From: an uncultured Roseateles sp.
Lineage (GTDB): Bacteria; Pseudomonadota; Gammaproteobacteria; Burkholderiales; Burkholderiaceae_C
DNA: 64,000 nt
Direction: 5' to 3'
NCBI RefSeq assembly: GCF_945956965.1
Contig: NZ_CAMFJS010000003.1
Span: 248,001-312,000 of the forward strand
Position numbers and translations under genes: made by a program
The notes under the pieces: model-generated
What the model was told of the DNA's origin: nothing
What the model saw: only the letters and a program-made list of their open reading frames with translations
Databases searched by the model: none
Shown here: positions 9,401-15,020 of the stretch, in pieces
How the letters are laid out: the number at the start of each line of letters is the position of its first letter
Position numbering within the stretch: position 1 is the first letter of the stretch

Positions 9401-9805
9401 GCAAGCAGTCTAGGTCGCACGCAGCGGCCTGCACCCCGTCGAATTCCCTATCCCCCCTATGTTCAAGGGGCTGCAAAAGCCTGCACCGCCACTGTGCACA
9501 CCCGCCTCCAAAACGCAGGCGCCATGCGGTAAAGCGCACCAAGCAAGGGCTGTGCAGCGGCCTTGCGCCGGAAGTCAGGCGCCGCCCGTCCACAGTGGCT
9601 GTGGACAAGTCCGTGCATAGCCTGCGCACGCCAGCGCTAAGTGCTTGACACCAAAGCGCAAAGCACGGAATGCCTCAATTTGAGGCATGGGTTTTGAATG
9701 CCGACGCAGGCGCGAGATAATCCCAGCCTCCCTAGGGCCTGCTAGCGCCCTTCTTCTTCGGCCCTTGCGCCTGTTTCGCTCGTTTCGCCCGCTCCGCGGC
9801 TCACC
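9401..9805. other. 405 bp intergenic region between divergent regulator and acyltransferase
   Basis: No convincing gene. It holds, left to right: CCCCCTATG at 9453-9461; a perfect inverted repeat GTCCACAG-TGG-CTGTGGAC at 9588-9606; the 13-mer GCTAAGTGCTTGA at 9636-9648; and the perfect 17-bp palindrome TGCCTCAATTTGAGGCA at 9671-9687. The last three form a composite element also found upstream of minC. TTGACA at 9645-9650 overlaps the 13-mer and could be a -35 box, but no good -10 lies at the proper distance. Confidence 0.7.
9588..9687 (+). promoter_or_regulatory. Composite regulatory element, copy 1 (upstream of acyltransferase)
   Basis: Three blocks in order: the inverted repeat with CTGTGGA starting at 9599, GCTAAGTGCTTGA starting at 9636, and the palindrome TGCCTCAATTTGAGGCA starting at 9671. 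The start-to-start distances are 37 and 35 bp. The same three blocks with the same two distances occur on the minus strand upstream of minC (14538, 14501, 14466). A binding-site function is inferred from the exact spacing and dyad symmetry; no known regulator is matched. Confidence 0.6.
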
Positions 9806-10396
9806 ATGCACAGAACCATATTCACCACGCCCATCGTCAACACCGTGCTGCGCACCTTGTCGATCGGCTTTCTCAAACTCACCGGCTGGAAGATCGAAGG
9901 CGCGCTGACACCCGAGCAACACAAAAGCGTGCTGATCGCCGCCCCCCACACCAGCAACTGGGATCTGCCCTACACCTTGATGGTGGCCTTTGCGCTGCGC
10001 CTGAACATCTACTGGATGGGTAAGCGGCAAATCTTCCGCTTCCCCTTCGGCGGCGTGATGCGCTGGCTGGGCGGCATTGAGGTCAATCGCGAACAGTCCA
10101 CCAATTTGGTCGCGGCCTCAGCCGCGGCGCTGCGTGCGGCCGATGGCCCGGTGCAGCTGATCGTGCCGCCCGAGGGCACGCGCAGCAAGACGCGTTACTG
10201 GAAGACCGGTTTTTACTGGATTGCGCACGAGGCGCAGGTGCCCATCGTGATGGCTTATATGGACTACGAGCGCAAGCTCAGCGGCCTGGGGCCACAGTTC
10301 ACGCCCACCGGCGACATCGAAGCCGATATGCTGGCCATCAAGGCCTTCTACGCGCAATACAAGGGAAAGAACTGGCAGCAGTTCGACCACAAATGA
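9806..10396 (+). CDS. 1-acyl-sn-glycerol-3-phosphate acyltransferase-like protein
   Basis: A 196-residue member of the PlsC-type acyltransferase superfamily, which transfers acyl chains to lysophosphatidate or related acceptors at the membrane. The catalytic HxxxxD motif is HTSNWD (about residues 49-54) and the acceptor-binding motif is PPEGTRSK (about residues 120-127). The protein is shorter than a typical PlsC (~240), matching a small subfamily common in proteobacteria. The substrate is not certain. Its stop overlaps the VF530 start by ATGA. The long 5' region contains composite element copy 1. Confidence 0.87.
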
Positions 10397-10671
10397 GCTC
10401 ATCCAACACGCCCGCATCACCCGCCGCCATCAAATCCAAGGACCCGCTGCACGGCCTGACTCTGGAGGCCATCGTCACCGCGCTGGCCGACTACTTTGGT
10501 TGGGATGAACTGGGCCAGCGCATCGAGATCCGCTGCTTTCAGTTGGACCCCAGCGTGGCATCGAGCCTGAAGTTCCTGCGCAAAACGCCATGGGCCCGCG
10601 CCAAGGTGGAAAGCCTTTATCTTTTCATGCTCCGCGAACAGGCTCGGCAAAGTCCTTCAGCAAGTCGCTAA
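10393..10671 (+). CDS. VF530 family (DUF2132) small DNA-binding-like protein
   Basis: A 92-residue protein that matches the VF530 family closely: [20 protein letters not shown] (about residues 17-36), then WDELGQRI and [16 protein letters not shown]. The family adopts a small helical fold related to DNA-binding modules, but its role is unknown. It starts inside the acyltransferase stop codon (ATGA), so the two are probably translated together. The stop codon sits in the first unit of a 15-bp tandem repeat. Confidence 0.9.
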
Positions 10672-10689
10672 CCCGCAAGTCGCTGACCC
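10660..10689 (+). repeat. 15-bp tandem duplication across the VF530 stop codon
   Basis: GCAAGTCGCTAACCC at 10660-10674 is followed directly by GCAAGTCGCTGACCC at 10675-10689, with one mismatch. The TAA stop (10669-10671) is in unit one; the single mismatch turns the equivalent codon of unit two into an in-frame TGA. Confidence 0.9.
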
Positions 10690-10764
10690 ACCGGCCGACT
10701 CTCAACCGAACGCCAACCGCGTGATTGAGCGGAAGAAAGAACGATCTAACAAAGAGGGATTGCC

Positions 10765-12297
10765 ATGCAGAAGTGGATTTCCGCCGGCGTGATTGCCTGC
10801 GTCGTGTTGTGGGGCCTGCTGGCGCCACAGCACATGCAGGCCTTTTTCAACGGCACCTTGGCGCAAGTCACGCGCAACTTTGGCTGGCTCTATTTGTGGA
10901 TTGTTTTGGGCCTGGTGCTGCTGTGCCTGGTCTTGGCCTTCAGCCGCTATGGCGATCTCAAGCTGGGCAAGGAAGACGATGAGCCGGAGTTCTCCTCCGG
11001 CAGCTGGTTCGCCATGCTGTTCTCGGCCGGCATGGGCATAGGCCTGGTGTTCTGGGGGGTGGCCGAGCCGATCTCGCACTTCCTCAACCCGCCGCCCGGC
11101 GTCGAAGCCGGCACGCCCGAGGCCGCCAATGCGGCCATGCGCTACAGCTTTTTCCACTGGGGCCTGCATCCCTGGGCAGTCTACAGCCTGGTCGGCCTGG
11201 CCATTGCTTTCTTCCAGTTTCGTCGCGACAAGCCTGCGCTGATCAGCTCGGCCACCGATGCCCTGCCTTGGCGCCATGCGCGCCGCATCGGGCCCTTGGT
11301 CAATATCCTGGCCATCGTGGCCACGGCCTTTGGCGTGGCGGCCTCGCTGGGCGTAGGGGCCTTGCAGATCAATGCCGGGCTGCAGCGCATGCTGGGCCTG
11401 CCGGTCAGCATCAATTCGCAGTTAGTCATCATTGCCGTCACCACCGCACTCTTCCTCTTATCGGCGCTCAGCGGTGTGGGTCGGGGCGTCAAGTGGCTAT
11501 CCAGCGCCAATCTGATTCTGGCGGCTTGCCTGGCCCTGGCGATTTTGCTGCTGGGGCCGACGGTGGCCATCATCGACACCTTCACCAATACCCTGGGTGC
11601 CTATTTATCTGATTTCGTACGCATGAGCTTACGCATGACGCCCTTCCGCGCCAGCGAATGGGTGGGCAGCTGGACGGTGTTTTATTGGGCTTGGTGGATT
11701 TCATGGTCGCCCTTTGTGGGCGTATTCATCGCCCGCGTCTCACGCGGCCGCAGCATCCGCGAGTTCATTCTGGGCACCGTGCTGGCGCCGACCTTGGCCG
11801 CGGCGCTGTGGTTCTCGATCTTCGGTGGCACCGCCTTGCACCTAGAAATCTTCAAGGCCGTGCCCATCGCAGCGGCCGTCAAGCTCGATGTCGCCACGGC
11901 CATGTTCGCGATGTTTGACGCGCTGCCGCTGGGCGGCTTGATGAGCGCGGTGGCGACCTTGCTGGTGGTGGTGTTCTTTGTCACCTCGGGCGACTCCGCC
12001 ACCCTGGTGCTGAGCATGATGAGCAGCGGCGGCAAGTCTGAGCCCGATAACAAGACCAAGCTGCTCTGGGGCCTGCTGGTGGCCTTGATCGCGGCCAGCT
12101 TGCTGATGGTGGGCGGCGTCAATGCGGTGCAAACCGCCACCATCGTGTTCGCCCTGCCCTTCTCGGTCGTGCTGGTGTTGATTGCCGCCTCGCTGTGGCG
12201 AGCGGTGCGCGAAGACCAACATGCGCAGGACAAGCTGGAAAAGGCCATGCGCAAGCGGCTGCGCCAGGGCTTGACCGAGGCCGATCAAGGCCGCTGA
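10765..12297 (+). CDS. BCCT family betaine/carnitine/choline transporter
   Basis: A 510-residue, 12-TM secondary transporter of the BCCT family, which imports quaternary ammonium compounds such as betaine or choline with H+ or Na+, often for osmoprotection. Family signatures are FSAGMGIGLVFWGVAEPISH (about residues 88-107) and the aromatic box WTVFYWAWWISWSPFVGVFI in TM8. A short cytoplasmic C-terminal tail (REDQHAQDKLEKAMRKRLRQ) could carry osmosensing, as in BetP and BetT. The ATG at 10765 follows AGAGGGATTGCC, a good ribosome site. The gene is followed by a strong terminator shared with convergent minE. Substrate and coupling ion are not resolved. Confidence 0.92.
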   Translation: MQKWISAGVIACVVLWGLLAPQHMQAFFNGTLAQVTRNFGWLYLWIVLGLVLLCLVLAFSRYGDLKLGKEDDEPEFSSGSWFAMLFSAGMGIGLVFWGVAEPISHFLNPPPGVEAGTPEAANAAMRYSFFHWGLHPWAVYSLVGLAIAFFQFRRDKPALISSATDALPWRHARRIGPLVNILAIVATAFGVAASLGVGALQINAGLQRMLGLPVSINSQLVIIAVTTALFLLSALSGVGRGVKWLSSANLILAACLALAILLLGPTVAIIDTFTNTLGAYLSDFVRMSLRMTPFRASEWVGSWTVFYWAWWISWSPFVGVFIARVSRGRSIREFILGTVLAPTLAAALWFSIFGGTALHLEIFKAVPIAAAVKLDVATAMFAMFDALPLGGLMSAVATLLVVVFFVTSGDSATLVLSMMSSGGKSEPDNKTKLLWGLLVALIAASLLMVGGVNAVQTATIVFALPFSVVLVLIAASLWRAVREDQHAQDKLEKAMRKRLRQGLTEADQGR

Positions 12298-12321
12298 CAA
12301 ACATCAGCACTGCAAAGCAAA

Positions 12322-12348
12322 ACGGGGCCCCAAGGGCCCCGTTTTTTT
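12322..12348. terminator. Rho-independent terminator between BCCT transporter and minE
   Basis: Stem ACGGGGCCC (12322-12330), loop CAA, GGGCCCCGT (12334-12342), then a run of seven T on the plus strand. The minus strand has only a short A/T flank, so it terminates mainly the transporter, with possible effect on the converging min transcript. Confidence 0.9.
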
Positions 12349-12360
12349 GTGCAGCGTAAA

Positions 12361-12621
12361 TCAGCGCGCCGACTCGGGCAGCTCGATCTTCACTTCCAAC
12401 ACTTCCAGATCACCTTCGTGCTCGACGGTGACCTTGAGGTCGTTGGGATTGATATTGACGTACTTCGAAATCACCGCCACCAGCTCGCGCTGCAGCTGCG
12501 GCAGGTAATCCGGCTTGGCGTTACGGCCATTGCGCTCGTGCGCAAGAATCAGCTGCAGGCGCTCCTTGGCGACGTTGGCCGTGGTCTTCTTCTCACCGAG
12601 AAAGAAACTCAGAAATCCCAT
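12361..12621 (-). CDS. minE: Cell division topological specificity factor MinE
   Basis: An 86-residue MinE. It binds membrane MinD, stimulates its ATPase and drives the pole-to-pole oscillation that keeps MinC off midcell. The N-terminal amphipathic membrane-targeting segment (MGFLSFFLG) and MinD-binding helix ([20 protein letters not shown]) are intact, followed by the beta-rich dimer domain ending in EVKIELPES. It lies 12 bp after minD with ribosome site AAGGAG, at the end of the leftward minC-minD-minE cluster. Confidence 0.96.
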
Positions 12622-12633
12622 CGCAGCGACTCC

Positions 12634-13449
12634 TTATTTGCCGCCGAACAGGCGCTTGAACAGGCTGGGCTTGACGGCCTCGATGAAGCGCATGGGCTTG
12701 TCTTCACCCAGGAAGCGGCTGACCACATCCTTGTAGGCCTCCGACACGTCCGTGCCTTGCATATGGATCGCAGGCGAGCCTTGGTTGGAGGCTTGCAGCA
12801 CCACTTCCGACTCAGGAATCACACCGATCAGCGGCGTGCGCAGGATCTCGTGAATGTCTTCCAGCGATAGCATATGGCCGCCCTCAACCCGGTTCGGGTT
12901 GTAGCGGGTGATCAGCAAATGCTCTTTGATGGGCTCTTTGCCGTCGATGGCGCGCTTGGTCTTGCTATTGAGCATGCCCAGAATGCGATCGGAGTCGCGC
13001 ACCGAGGACACCTCGGGGTTGGTGACCACCAAGGCCTCGTCGGCGAAGTGCATGGCCATCAGCGCACCGGTTTCGATGCCGGCCGGCGAGTCACAGACGA
13101 TGAAGTCAAAGTCCATGGCCTTGAGCTCTTCGAGCACACGCTCCACGCCTTCGACAGACAAAGCATCCTTGTCGCGGGTTTGCGAGGCGGCCAGGATGAA
13201 GAGCTTGTCCAGCTGCTTGTCCTTGATCAGGGCTTGGCTGAGCTTGATCTCGTCGTTGATGACATTGATCAGGTCATAGACCACGCGGCGCTCGCAACCC
13301 ATGATCAGGTCGAGGTTGCGCAGGCCGACGTCAAAGTCGATCACGCAGGTCTTGTGGCCGCGCAGGGCCAGGCCGGTGGCAAAGCTCGCGCTGGTGGTGG
13401 TTTTGCCCACGCCGCCTTTGCCGGAAGTCACTACGACTATCTTGGTCAT
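12634..13449 (-). CDS. minD: Septum site-determining ATPase MinD
   Basis: A 271-residue ParA/MinD ATPase. The deviant Walker A motif is TSGKGGVGKTTT (about residues 8-19), the Asp-containing switch is VIDFDVGLRNLD, and VCDSPAGIE follows. The C-terminus SLFKRLFGGK is the amphipathic membrane-targeting helix. It recruits MinC to the membrane and is released by MinE. The ATG at 13449 is chosen because AAAGGA lies ~10 bp upstream and MTKIVVVTSGKGG is the family start; an upstream TTG in frame is not needed. Confidence 0.96.
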   Translation of the reverse strand: MTKIVVVTSGKGGVGKTTTSASFATGLALRGHKTCVIDFDVGLRNLDLIMGCERRVVYDLINVINDEIKLSQALIKDKQLDKLFILAASQTRDKDALSVEGVERVLEELKAMDFDFIVCDSPAGIETGALMAMHFADEALVVTNPEVSSVRDSDRILGMLNSKTKRAIDGKEPIKEHLLITRYNPNRVEGGHMLSLEDIHEILRTPLIGVIPESEVVLQASNQGSPAIHMQGTDVSEAYKDVVSRFLGEDKPMRFIEAVKPSLFKRLFGGK

Positions 13450-13542
13450 CGAATTCAATCCTTTCAAAATCTCTTGGCAGGACCGGTTCAGGGCCGACCC
13501 ATCTGGTTCAAATCTGCAATCTCAAAACAAGTTCGGCCGGCC

Positions 13543-14367
13543 TCAGAGCTTCAGCGGCTCCATCACCAATTTCTCGCCTTCCAGCCGAATCTGCGCCGCC
13601 TTGCCCAAGACGGTGTCGGGCAGGGGGTTTTCGGTGGTGCGATAGGTGCCGGCGATGGCGATCAACTCCGCTTCCATGCTCATGGCGAAAATGCGGGCCT
13701 CGGTATTGCCCTTGGCGCCAGCAATGGCCTTGCCGCGCAGCGGTGCGTAGACGTGGATGCTGCCATCGGCAATCACCTCGGCACCGTGGTTGACCAAGGC
13801 CAGCACCACCAGGTCACCGCCCTTGGCGTAGACCTGCTGACCGCTGCGCAAGGGCTTGTCGATGATCAGGGTCTTGGCGCTAGCGCCTTCAGCCGGCACG
13901 GGCACTTCAAGCACCACCTCACGAATCACTTCGCGTACCACTTCTCGAATTTGGACCGGGGCCTCGTCGGCGCGGGGCCGTGCGGCTTGCACCTCGTCAG
14001 CAGGCGCCTCGGCCAAACCCAGGCTCAGAGCCTGAGCCAGCTCATCCGGGCGTGCGCCCATGATGGCCACCGGCTGCAGGCGGTACTGGCGCAGCAAGGC
14101 CAGCAAGGCGGCTACGTCGAGCAAAGCGGCCGCATCGGCATCAGCGGGCAACTGGCTCAAATCCAGCAAGAGTGGGTCTTGGCTGAACAACTCGGGCGTG
14201 TCGCCCCATTTGCTGGCCAGGGCGGTGCTCAGCTCGGCCAAGTCGGCGGACTTGAGCACCAGCGCCAGCAAACTCAGGCTGGCGCTCTTCAACTCGAAAC
14301 ATTCAGCGTTTCTGGACCCCGTCCGAGCCGCCGCTCCTCCCGTCTGTGCCATCTGTGCCTGAGTCAT
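13543..14367 (-). CDS. minC: Septum site-determining protein MinC
   Basis: A 274-residue FtsZ polymerisation inhibitor. The N-terminal FtsZ-binding domain (about residues 20-115) is followed by an acidic/Val-Arg-Glu-rich linker (about 130-160) and the C-terminal beta-helix MinD-binding domain with PLRSGQQVYAKGGDLVVLA and ADGSIHVYAPLRGKAIAGA. It is first of the minCDE cluster, with a 93 bp gap to minD. Upstream is a 653 bp intergenic region carrying composite element copy 2, whose palindrome ends 83 bp before the start codon. Confidence 0.95.
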   Translation of the reverse strand: MTQAQMAQTGGAAARTGSRNAECFELKSASLSLLALVLKSADLAELSTALASKWGDTPELFSQDPLLLDLSQLPADADAAALLDVAALLALLRQYRLQPVAIMGARPDELAQALSLGLAEAPADEVQAARPRADEAPVQIREVVREVIREVVLEVPVPAEGASAKTLIIDKPLRSGQQVYAKGGDLVVLALVNHGAEVIADGSIHVYAPLRGKAIAGAKGNTEARIFAMSMEAELIAIAGTYRTTENPLPDTVLGKAAQIRLEGEKLVMEPLKL

Positions 14368-14449
14368 CGAGTTATTGTGTAAATCGTGCGATTTTAGCTG
14401 GACGATTGAGGCAATCCCTCAGGCATTGCCCGCAGGATTCACCAGAGCT

Positions 14450-14551
14450 TGCCCAAATTTGAGGCAAGCCAGCAAAGTCTCAAGCCGATCAAGCACTTAG
14501 CAAAACTACAGCCAAGCCACCCACAAAGATATCCACAGCGGATGGGGATAG
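14450..14551 (-). promoter_or_regulatory. Composite regulatory element, copy 2 (upstream of minC)
   Basis: Read on the minus strand: an imperfect inverted repeat TATCCCCA-N5-TGTGGATA with CTGTGGA starting at 14538, then GCTAAGTGCTTGA starting at 14501, then the near-palindrome TGCCTCAAATTTGGGCA starting at 14466. Distances are 37 and 35 bp, identical to copy 1 upstream of the acyltransferase, while the sequences between blocks are unrelated. It points toward minC. Confidence 0.6.
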
Positions 14552-14690
14552 TCCCTGGATTTTCGAGTGGCCGCAGCGCCAGAAAACGATCTTTTTTGTG
14601 TTAGCAAGCTTGACTTATCCCCATTTTTGGCTTGAGTCAAGCCCATACAGGCACAAGTCGGGCAAGTCCTAGGCCATCTCGGCCAACAGC

Positions 14691-14741
14691 GCTAAGTTGT
14701 TGATTCATATTGAATGCGCTCGACTGCTTCGAAATGAGGCA
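14691..14741 (+). promoter_or_regulatory. Partial composite element, copy 3
   Basis: GCTAAGTTGTTGA (11 of 13 matches to the shared block) at 14691-14703 and TGCTTCGAAATGAGGCA (degenerate form of the 17-bp palindrome) at 14725-14741, 34 bp start to start. No CTGTGGA block lies 37 bp upstream. It points toward the gene at 15021 and metG. Confidence 0.45.
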
Positions 14742-14791
14742 AGCTAAGCTGATGCACGGTGGGACAAGGGTTTGGCGGCTGCCGAGGGGCC

Positions 14792-14825
14792 TTGTCCACA
14801 AAGTTATCCACAGGAGCAGTGGATA
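14792..14825. promoter_or_regulatory. DnaA-box cluster with inverted TATCCAC/GTGGATA pair
   Basis: TTGTCCACA (14792-14800) and the consensus DnaA box TTATCCACA (14804-14812) lie in tandem. TATCCAC (14805-14811) and GTGGATA (14819-14825) form a perfect inverted pair with a 7 bp spacer. DnaA binding is inferred from the consensus alone. Confidence 0.5.
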
Positions 14826-15020
14826 GTCTTGCGGCGCTATAAAAATCAGTCACTTAGCTGTCATGTTTGAAGTATTTCTGAGCTTCCTGCGCTAAGTCGA
14901 CGCGCTTGATCTCGTGACGCGGCGTGGGCTGTTTGATGGGACGTCTTGGCGACTAAGGCTTCGCTGCGGTTACATTGAAGGCAAACCCGCGCATCGCGGA
15001 CCTCTTGCAGGAGCACGGCA

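Follow-up and report, generated by a model that had tools for sequence, protein, structure and literature searches.

Why are minC and an acyltransferase-family gene preceded by the same three short sequence blocks at the same distances? The question is raised by a window of 64,000 nucleotides, the whole stretch of DNA that was analysed, from an uncultured Roseateles sp. of the order Burkholderiales (contig NZ_CAMFJS010000003.1, positions 248,001 to 312,000). An initial annotation of this window described CTGTGGA, the 13-mer GCTAAGTGCTTGA and a palindromic third block, starting 37 and 35 bp from one another in two copies on opposite strands, and proposed a link between minCDE and lipid acylation through one unknown regulator or nucleoprotein complex. 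Both distances and all positions were confirmed, with CTGTGGA at 9599 on the plus strand and from 14538 on the minus strand. The proposed link was not. The blocks read as DnaA boxes, a site like that of integration host factor (IHF) and a Fis-like site, and the unit is also present beside xseA and an exbB/tolQ-like gene and in a convergent region near glmU, with its core between hemE and priA. Judged by their sequences, the composites are probably modular DnaA-IHF(-Fis) elements that regulate DnaA in the manner of the DnaA-reactivating sequences (DARS) of E. coli. The best reading is that such elements occur across the order at two loci, xseA and priA, and appear to have been multiplied in Roseateles and Paucibacter.

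A third copy, absent from the initial annotation, is located 275 bp further upstream of minC (14826-14725, minus strand). There CTGTGG starts at 14813, GCCAAACCCTTGT at 14776 and TGCCTCATTTCGAAGCA at 14741, again with a spacing of 37 and 35 bp. The two reported copies are identical at 65 of 140 aligned bases. When the acyltransferase-side copy was slid across both strands of the whole window, the minC-proximal copy (65 identities) and the third copy (63) were the top two places other than itself, against a background mean of 36.7 (standard deviation 5.3) and a best unrelated place of 61. Raw identity between the copies is only just above chance, and the case therefore rests on the fixed register of the blocks and on their conservation in relatives. 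Kept spacing with diverged spacers had been taken as a sign of protein contacts instead of recent duplication, and this argument stands. Spacing that is retained while the spacers diverge argues for protein contacts, and recent duplication is ruled out because the spacers are unrelated and the copies are orthologous in relatives.

The 13-mer alone is unspecific, with 24 matches in the window at 3 mismatches when 14.8 are expected. Its exact form occurs at three places in the own genome, the two in the window and one between hemE and priA, and is present in 27 of the 59 genomes searched, the own genome included. A reversed control gave no exact match in 18 genomes of the genus. In relatives, many exact copies of the 13-mer form one arm of a terminator-like hairpin adjoining tRNA genes, often tRNA-Lys (L095, L099, L102, L105, L107, L108 and L115-L117, around position 1501), and these are separate from the DnaA units. 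A regulon defined by the 13-mer only was ruled out; 12 of 13 tRNA-like loci picked by eye have a tRNA predicted by ARAGORN at the site.

What do the three blocks represent? Block 1 is the middle of a cluster of DnaA boxes. Counted from CTGTGG, box II is preceded by an opposed box (box I) at a step of 14 bp and followed by a third box at a step of 12 bp, with box I opposed to both boxes II and III. It is very probable from its sequence that this three-box core binds DnaA. Block 2 of the two reported copies overlaps a site with one mismatch to the IHF consensus TAAnnnnTTGATW, a fit that the third copy does not show. Block 3, at +72 from box II, spans 15 bp from a G to a C and is AT-rich in its middle, a half-palindrome of the form G(N13)C. 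It resembles the Fis consensus GnnYAnnnnnTRnnC and is the least secure of the block identities (both consensus sequences are given in sections of PMC8682772 and PMC4245941). The own genome encodes DnaA, an IHF-alpha that scores above the curated cut-off of NCBIfam, and a protein that is 43% identical to E. coli Fis along 74 residues. The units in the window are non-coding and lie between annotatable genes.

Upstream of these two genes the element is found in many relatives, with its spacing kept. A MinC search in named genomes gave 79 loci, and 76 (L010-L085) were retained after L086-L088 (Moraxella, Clostridium) were set aside. Units are present at 43 of the 74 loci with at least 600 bp upstream of minC, two units at 35 loci and one at 8, and the distance between paired units varies from 252 to 358. 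Where the genus is named, unit-bearing loci are mostly from Roseateles, Paucibacter, Pelomonas and Mitsuaria, and many of the unit-free loci are from Aquabacterium, Sphaerotilus and Herminiimonas. The acyltransferase gene was detected in 28 of the 76 loci, and 18 of these have the unit core upstream of it. After the removal of 10 of 68 selected units (7 with block 3 one base nearer, 3 redundant), the remaining 58 composites align without gaps over 104 columns. In block 2 of this alignment the AA and TTG columns are invariant and the four bases between them are variable, matching the prediction from the IHF consensus.

Variations at individual loci have been observed. The acyltransferase-side unit of L052 (8975-9203; Pelomonas sp. 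UHG3) is a tandem duplicate. Upstream of the acyltransferase gene in L051 and L067 there are apparent remnants, in which blocks 2 and 3 are partly kept and the DnaA core is lost. Full units in L026 (8257-8360) and L038 (7936-8039) are located downstream of minD, not upstream of a detected acyltransferase gene.

How widely are the units distributed in the order? A core model, R1, was made from 68 cores of the relatives' minC loci, 66 of them upstream of minC or the acyltransferase gene and 2 elsewhere (L026 and L038). It was used out of sample, trained on neither xseA nor priA loci, to score the regions upstream of these genes in 41 genomes, each of a different family. PriA was located in all 41 and XseA in 40. 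A match was counted if its centre fell in the range from 60 bp inside the gene to 600 bp before its estimated start, and the weakest match counted had 11.2 bits. With the own genome excluded, and with G040 (no match) and G042 (weak match) set aside for xseA, xseA has the core upstream of it in 32 of 38 other families, with 31 of these cores in the orientation of the gene. The core was found upstream of priA in 23 of 40 other families, always in the opposite orientation. The core is present at either locus in 32 of 40 families and at both in 23; at 18 bits or more the counts are 25 for xseA, 14 for priA and 30 for either.

The spacing within the core was examined by searching 20 genomes for TCCAC-N-TGTGGATAA with the gap free from 1 to 12. 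This gave 40 matches (one G041 place being counted on both strands), 38 with a gap of 6, one with a gap of 5 and one with a gap of 9; the reversed control gave 3. The gap-9 match is about 0.2 kb before dnaA in G005.

For the other blocks, units were picked on the DnaA core alone and consensus matches were counted at 200 offsets from box II. Three sets were used: 95 units from minC loci, in which kinship inflates the counts, and units from 21 of 30 xseA loci and 13 of 30 priA loci, with one genome per family. In the 95-unit set, a forward IHF site at +38, which is on the box III side of the core as in DARS2, is perfect in 19 units and has at most one mismatch in 46, compared with a mean of 0.43 per offset. 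A forward site at -44 has at most one mismatch in 33 units, and a reversed site at +107 was found in 32 (perfect in 30). In the window, units A (acyltransferase side) and B (minC-proximal) have a site with one mismatch at +38, and unit C (the third copy) has sites only at +107 and -44. Perfect Fis matches in the 95-unit set peak at +71 (5) and +72 (4). In the xseA set, 8 of 21 units, each from a different family, have a perfect Fis consensus at +72 where the mean is 0.06, and 11 have one with at most one mismatch. Reversed IHF sites with at most one mismatch are found in the xseA set at +105 (4), +104 (3) and +106 (2), and the priA set has reversed sites at +105 (5), +106 (4) and +104 (2). Five priA units have a Fis site with at most one mismatch at +72, a count equalled at +4.

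Which E. coli element do the units resemble? At E. coli DARS, ADP-DnaA binds head to head on boxes I and II, DARS2 is activated by IHF and Fis, and spacing matters (sections of PMC8682772, PMC4245941 and PMC5742627). The core box steps 0/+14/+26 are common to the units, DARS1 (L181, 2108/2122/2134) and DARS2 (L180, 636/650/662). Like a DARS, the units have three DnaA boxes at fixed spacing, the first two facing in opposite directions; in unit A the third box is weak. The corresponding 35-mers are TTATCCACTATTCCTGTGGATAACCATGTGTATTA in DARS1 and CTATCCACTGCTCCTGTGGATAACTTTGTGGACAA in the core of unit C (window 14826-14792). When R1 was run on 212.5 kb of MG1655, comprising the regions of DARS1, DARS2 and datA together with four stretches of 50 kb each, the best match was DARS1 (22.1 bits over 31 bases, E value 2.7e-5), and the third was a place within pdeR (17.4 bits). 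DARS1 differs from the units in that it is without an IHF-like site at +38 and without a Fis-like site at +72. DARS2 is similar to the units in its core with 14- and 12-bp steps, its IHF sites on the box III side and its intergenic position; it also needs Fis sites, which may have a counterpart in block 3 (sections of PMC8682772 and PMC4245941). The Burkholderiales units differ from DARS2 in having IHF at +38, a Fis-like site at +72 and often a reversed IHF site at +104 to +107, and the core-IHF-Fis distances of E. coli DARS2 were not found in them. They also differ in core letters, in occurring as several modular units per genome and in their neighbours; in E. coli, DARS2 is at ygdT-mutH and DARS1 at bioD-uvrB. 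Like the units, the datA locus combines DnaA boxes and an IHF site, and it has both a tandem pair at an equal step of 12 bp and an opposed pair. Relative to the tandem pair, its IHF site is on the opposite side from that in the units. The datA order, an IHF site flanked by essential DnaA boxes, is not that of the units, and only their arrays resemble datA. An opposed box at 14 bp is common to DARS1, DARS2 and the units, while the step in datA is 12 bp, and a DARS-like function is therefore favoured. Identity with oriC was ruled out: dnaA is on contig C2 and the window on contig C3, and R1 reaches at most 7.7 bits in the 6 kb around dnaA.

Several findings weigh against a DARS-like role. In the MG1655 run, part of datA was the second match (18.9 bits) and the edge of oriC the fourth (15.8 bits), and the DARS2 core was not reported, reaching only 9.4 bits with filters off. 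E. coli DARS2 has IHF sites at +79 and +95 and a Fis consensus at +131 (and one with 1 mismatch at +49), and datA too has an opposed box pair, though with a 12-bp step compared with 14 bp in the units. Unit C is without a good IHF site at +38 (4 mismatches), and block 3 misses the Fis consensus by 2, 1 and 2 positions in units A, B and C. Units A and B are upstream of promoter-like sequences, as expected of a promoter regulator. The hemE-priA core of the own genome is partial, without a clear box I. Units are missing, at the threshold used, from 31 of the 74 minC loci and from 10 of the 28 acyltransferase loci. In the 95-unit set, Fis matches at 1 mismatch are more frequent at +4, inside the DnaA boxes (38), than at +72 (26). 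Conservation of the forward IHF site at +38 does not extend across the order; the site is present with at most one mismatch in 1 of 21 xseA units, and +38 is not among the top IHF offsets in the 13 priA units.

Further copies were found by scanning the own genome with R1 and with a model of the composite, R2. Only part of the first-look candidates was scored (150 of 1498 for R1 and 67 of 2116 for R2), so the unit counts are lower bounds. Besides the units in the window, R1 found a unit on contig C36 by the exbB/tolQ-like gene (35.1 bits), three units on C13 (25.7, 25.7 and 17.5 bits), and matches on C12 (23.2 bits), at hemE-priA (22.9 bits) and at rplI-dnaB (21.4 bits). The weak additional core matches are those at C12:126685, rplI-dnaB C10:55961, C15 and C9. 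R2 found at least seven units at an E value of 1.8e-10 or better, two at minC, one at the acyltransferase gene, three on C13 and one on C36. R2 matches also occur at other places in relatives, for example L230-L233 and L252-L254. Matches with an E value of up to 1 were obtained in 59 of 59 genomes, a threshold that is too lax to be informative. The names hemE, priA, xseA, metG, glmU, minD and IHF-alpha are from NCBIfam matches, and the 'exbB' neighbour is ExbB/TolQ-like, below every cut-off. A tandem DnaA-box pair was observed at L250 (about 1600-1690; G000:C10:55961), with rplI on one side and dnaB, the gene of the replicative helicase, on the other.

The own assembly has xseA at one contig end (C48) and its unit at another (C36). 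They are joined (L371) in G008, a one-contig genome of the same genus with 5,169,161 bases and dnaA at 4,226,895. In G008 the distance to dnaA is about 0.72 Mb for the hemE-priA unit, whose position was inferred by means of the 105-bp pairing between 13-mer and box pair, 1.23 Mb for the glmU side, 1.60 Mb for the xseA side and 2.04 Mb for minC and the acyltransferase gene. The perfect 17-mer TGTGGATAACTTTGTGG is present in 2-3 copies in each of 18 genomes of the genus, the own genome included. Taking one locus per genome, 17 of 18 adjoin minC-metG, the exbB/tolQ-like gene or hemE-priA; the remaining locus (L151, short) matches none of the reference genes. The triple array on C13 is located between the 3' ends of a Y1-transposase-family gene and a 154-aa open reading frame (no Pfam family) downstream of glmU. 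This convergent arrangement with a unit also occurs in G008, L354, L356, L357, L361 and L362, making seven genomes of the genus with the own. One or three units are present near glmU in the genomes examined there. In L229 a Y1-transposase-family gene (1132-1986) adjoins an array of three DnaA units that closely resemble one another (2064-2665), downstream of glmU.

Could the units have a datA-like or titration role, binding DnaA with IHF and either promoting ATP hydrolysis or just sequestering DnaA? The datA locus shares the 12-bp-step tandem pair (the second-best R1 match in the E. coli stretches), and it has an opposed pair (12-bp step) and an IHF site. The tandem arrays (two units at minC, three on the glmU side) have an IHF-like site between DnaA clusters in the fashion of datA, and seven units at an E value of 2e-10 or better in the own genome would suit titration. 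Against this, inspection by eye shows no opposed box 14 bp from the datA tandem pair and places the IHF site on its other side, and at the order-wide loci more than one match place was found only in L271, L277 and L313; such a role is regarded as unlikely. An unrelated protein might bind block 3, or outside Roseateles block 2, so that only the DnaA part would be DARS-like; this view is somewhat unlikely, and it is compatible with the other readings. In the window copies, the palindrome of block 3 is stronger than required for Fis and departs from the consensus at one or two positions, and mainly TAAGT is kept of block 2 in the xseA set, but the perfect Fis consensus exactly at +72 in units from eight different families is not what this view would lead one to expect.

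Control of promoters by DnaA, IHF and Fis, with DnaA as a transcription factor, could tie the expression of minC, the acyltransferase gene, xseA, the exbB/tolQ-like gene and priA to the cell cycle. Units A and B are directed towards their own genes and are close to -10-like sequences, and 31 of the 32 xseA units point at the gene. All 23 priA units, however, point away from it, and the glmU-side units of the seven genomes named above are between gene 3' ends, which makes promoter control unlikely there. The -10-like sequence (GATAAT or GACAAT, by eye) is also kept in 8 of the 10 relatives' loci that have the acyltransferase gene without the unit. Promoter control is quite unlikely as the explanation of the units, although it is compatible with a DARS-like role, and promoter effects on minC or the acyltransferase gene may exist besides that role. 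A mobile or interspersed repeat carrying DnaA boxes, similar to a miniature inverted-repeat transposable element or a repetitive extragenic palindrome, would explain several copies per genome, the tandem unit of L052 and the Y1-transposase-family gene by the glmU-side array, which is within the stretch in most genomes of the genus examined there. It would not explain position and orientation conserved at xseA and priA over many families, nor the diverged spacers, and L355 and L360 have a glmU-side unit with no transposase match within a stretch of 3.8-3.9 kb. A transposase-borne repeat is disfavoured, and a repeat origin is highly improbable.

If the units work like the DARS of E. coli, ADP-DnaA would occupy boxes I and II in a head-to-head arrangement, and IHF, with a Fis-like protein at block 3, would bend the DNA. 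ADP would then be released, and apo-DnaA would leave and reload with ATP, raising ATP-DnaA before initiation. The copies at xseA-exbB/tolQ-like and hemE-priA would be the ancestral pair, and those at minC, the acyltransferase gene and the glmU side would be lineage additions. As a tentative proposal, an ancestral Burkholderiales DARS pair of compact DnaA-IHF-Fis layout might have grown in some lineages to about seven full units. These might spread DnaA recharging round the chromosome, and one of the sites, beside the operon of the division inhibitor, might couple the timing of initiation to minCDE.

Among the papers listed by full-text literature searches, none was seen to describe DARS in Burkholderiales. 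Fis and the DARS2 core are stated, in a section of PMC4245941, to be conserved specifically among gammaproteobacteria related to E. coli. A sentence on the conservation of DARS2 spacing in the review PMC5742627 mentions beta species, and the primary paper cited there says gamma. The loci, the compact layout and the presence of several units per genome are new here, and the core geometry of E. coli DARS was already known. The reset of ADP-DnaA for the next round has been worked out in E. coli. If the DARS-like reading is true, two fixed loci in most of the sampled Burkholderiales families would be a testable set for the generality of DnaA recharging, and the natural series of unit numbers (0-2 at minC, 1 or 3 near glmU) would offer a way to read the mechanism.

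Table 1. Putative sites of the three units and adjoining genes in the window (R1 and R2 scores are from the own-genome scans; mismatches of IHF-like and Fis-like sites are to the consensus sequences given in the text)
Feature	Position	Strand	Remarks
Unit A, upstream of acyltransferase gene	9586..9687	+	DnaA box trio, IHF-like site, Fis-like half-palindrome; R1 core 30.7 bits, R2 composite 64.8 bits
Unit A, DnaA box trio	9586..9620	+	starts 0/+14/+26, shared with the cores of E. coli DARS1 and DARS2
Unit A, box I, CCGTCCACA	9586-9594	+	
Unit A, box II, TGTGGACAA	9600-9608	+	
Unit A, box III-like, CGTGCATAG	9612-9620	+	weak, 3 mismatches
Unit A, block 2, 13-mer GCTAAGTGCTTGA	9636-9648	+	acyltransferase-side copy
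Unit A, IHF-like site, TAAGTGCTTGACA	9638..9650	+	1 mismatch; overlaps 13-mer
Unit A, block 3, TGCCTCAATTTGAGGCA, Fis-like half-palindrome	9671-9687	+	core 15-mer 9672-9686; 2 mismatches
Unit B, minC-proximal	14450..14551	-	R1 30.9 bits, R2 68.6 bits
Unit B, box I	14551-14543	-	
Unit B, box II	14537-14529	-	
Unit B, box III	14525-14517	-	
Unit B, block 2, same 13-mer GCTAAGTGCTTGA	14501-14489	-	minC-proximal copy
Unit B, IHF-like site	14499-14487	-	1 mismatch
Unit B, block 3, TGCCTCAAATTTGGGCA, Fis-like	14466-14450	-	1 mismatch
Unit C, minC-distal	14725..14826	-	R1 37.2 bits (highest core score of the own-genome scan), R2 66.1 bits
Unit C, box I, CTATCCACT	14826-14818	-	
Unit C, box II, TGTGGATAA	14812-14804	-	
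Unit C, box III, TGTGGACAA	14800-14792	-	
Unit C, block 2, GCCAAACCCTTGT	14776-14764	-	4 mismatches to IHF consensus
Unit C, block 3, TGCCTCATTTCGAAGCA	14741-14725	-	2 mismatches to Fis consensus
Extra IHF-like site, TAAGTGACTGATT	14844..14856	-	1 mismatch; 44 bp before unit C box II
Extra IHF-consensus site, AATCAACAACTTA	14693..14705	-	0 mismatches, reversed; 107 bp after unit C box II
DnaA-box-like, TTATCCCCA	14615..14623	+	inside conserved minus-strand TGGGGATAAGTCAAG
minC	13543..14367	-	adjoins units B and C; Pfam MinC_N and MinC_C
Acyltransferase-family gene	9806..10396	+	adjoins unit A; Pfam PF01553

The xseA and priA matches, as described above, are upstream of genes. Directly after the acyltransferase gene, the window contains a gene for a small DNA-binding protein of the VF530 family (10393-10671).

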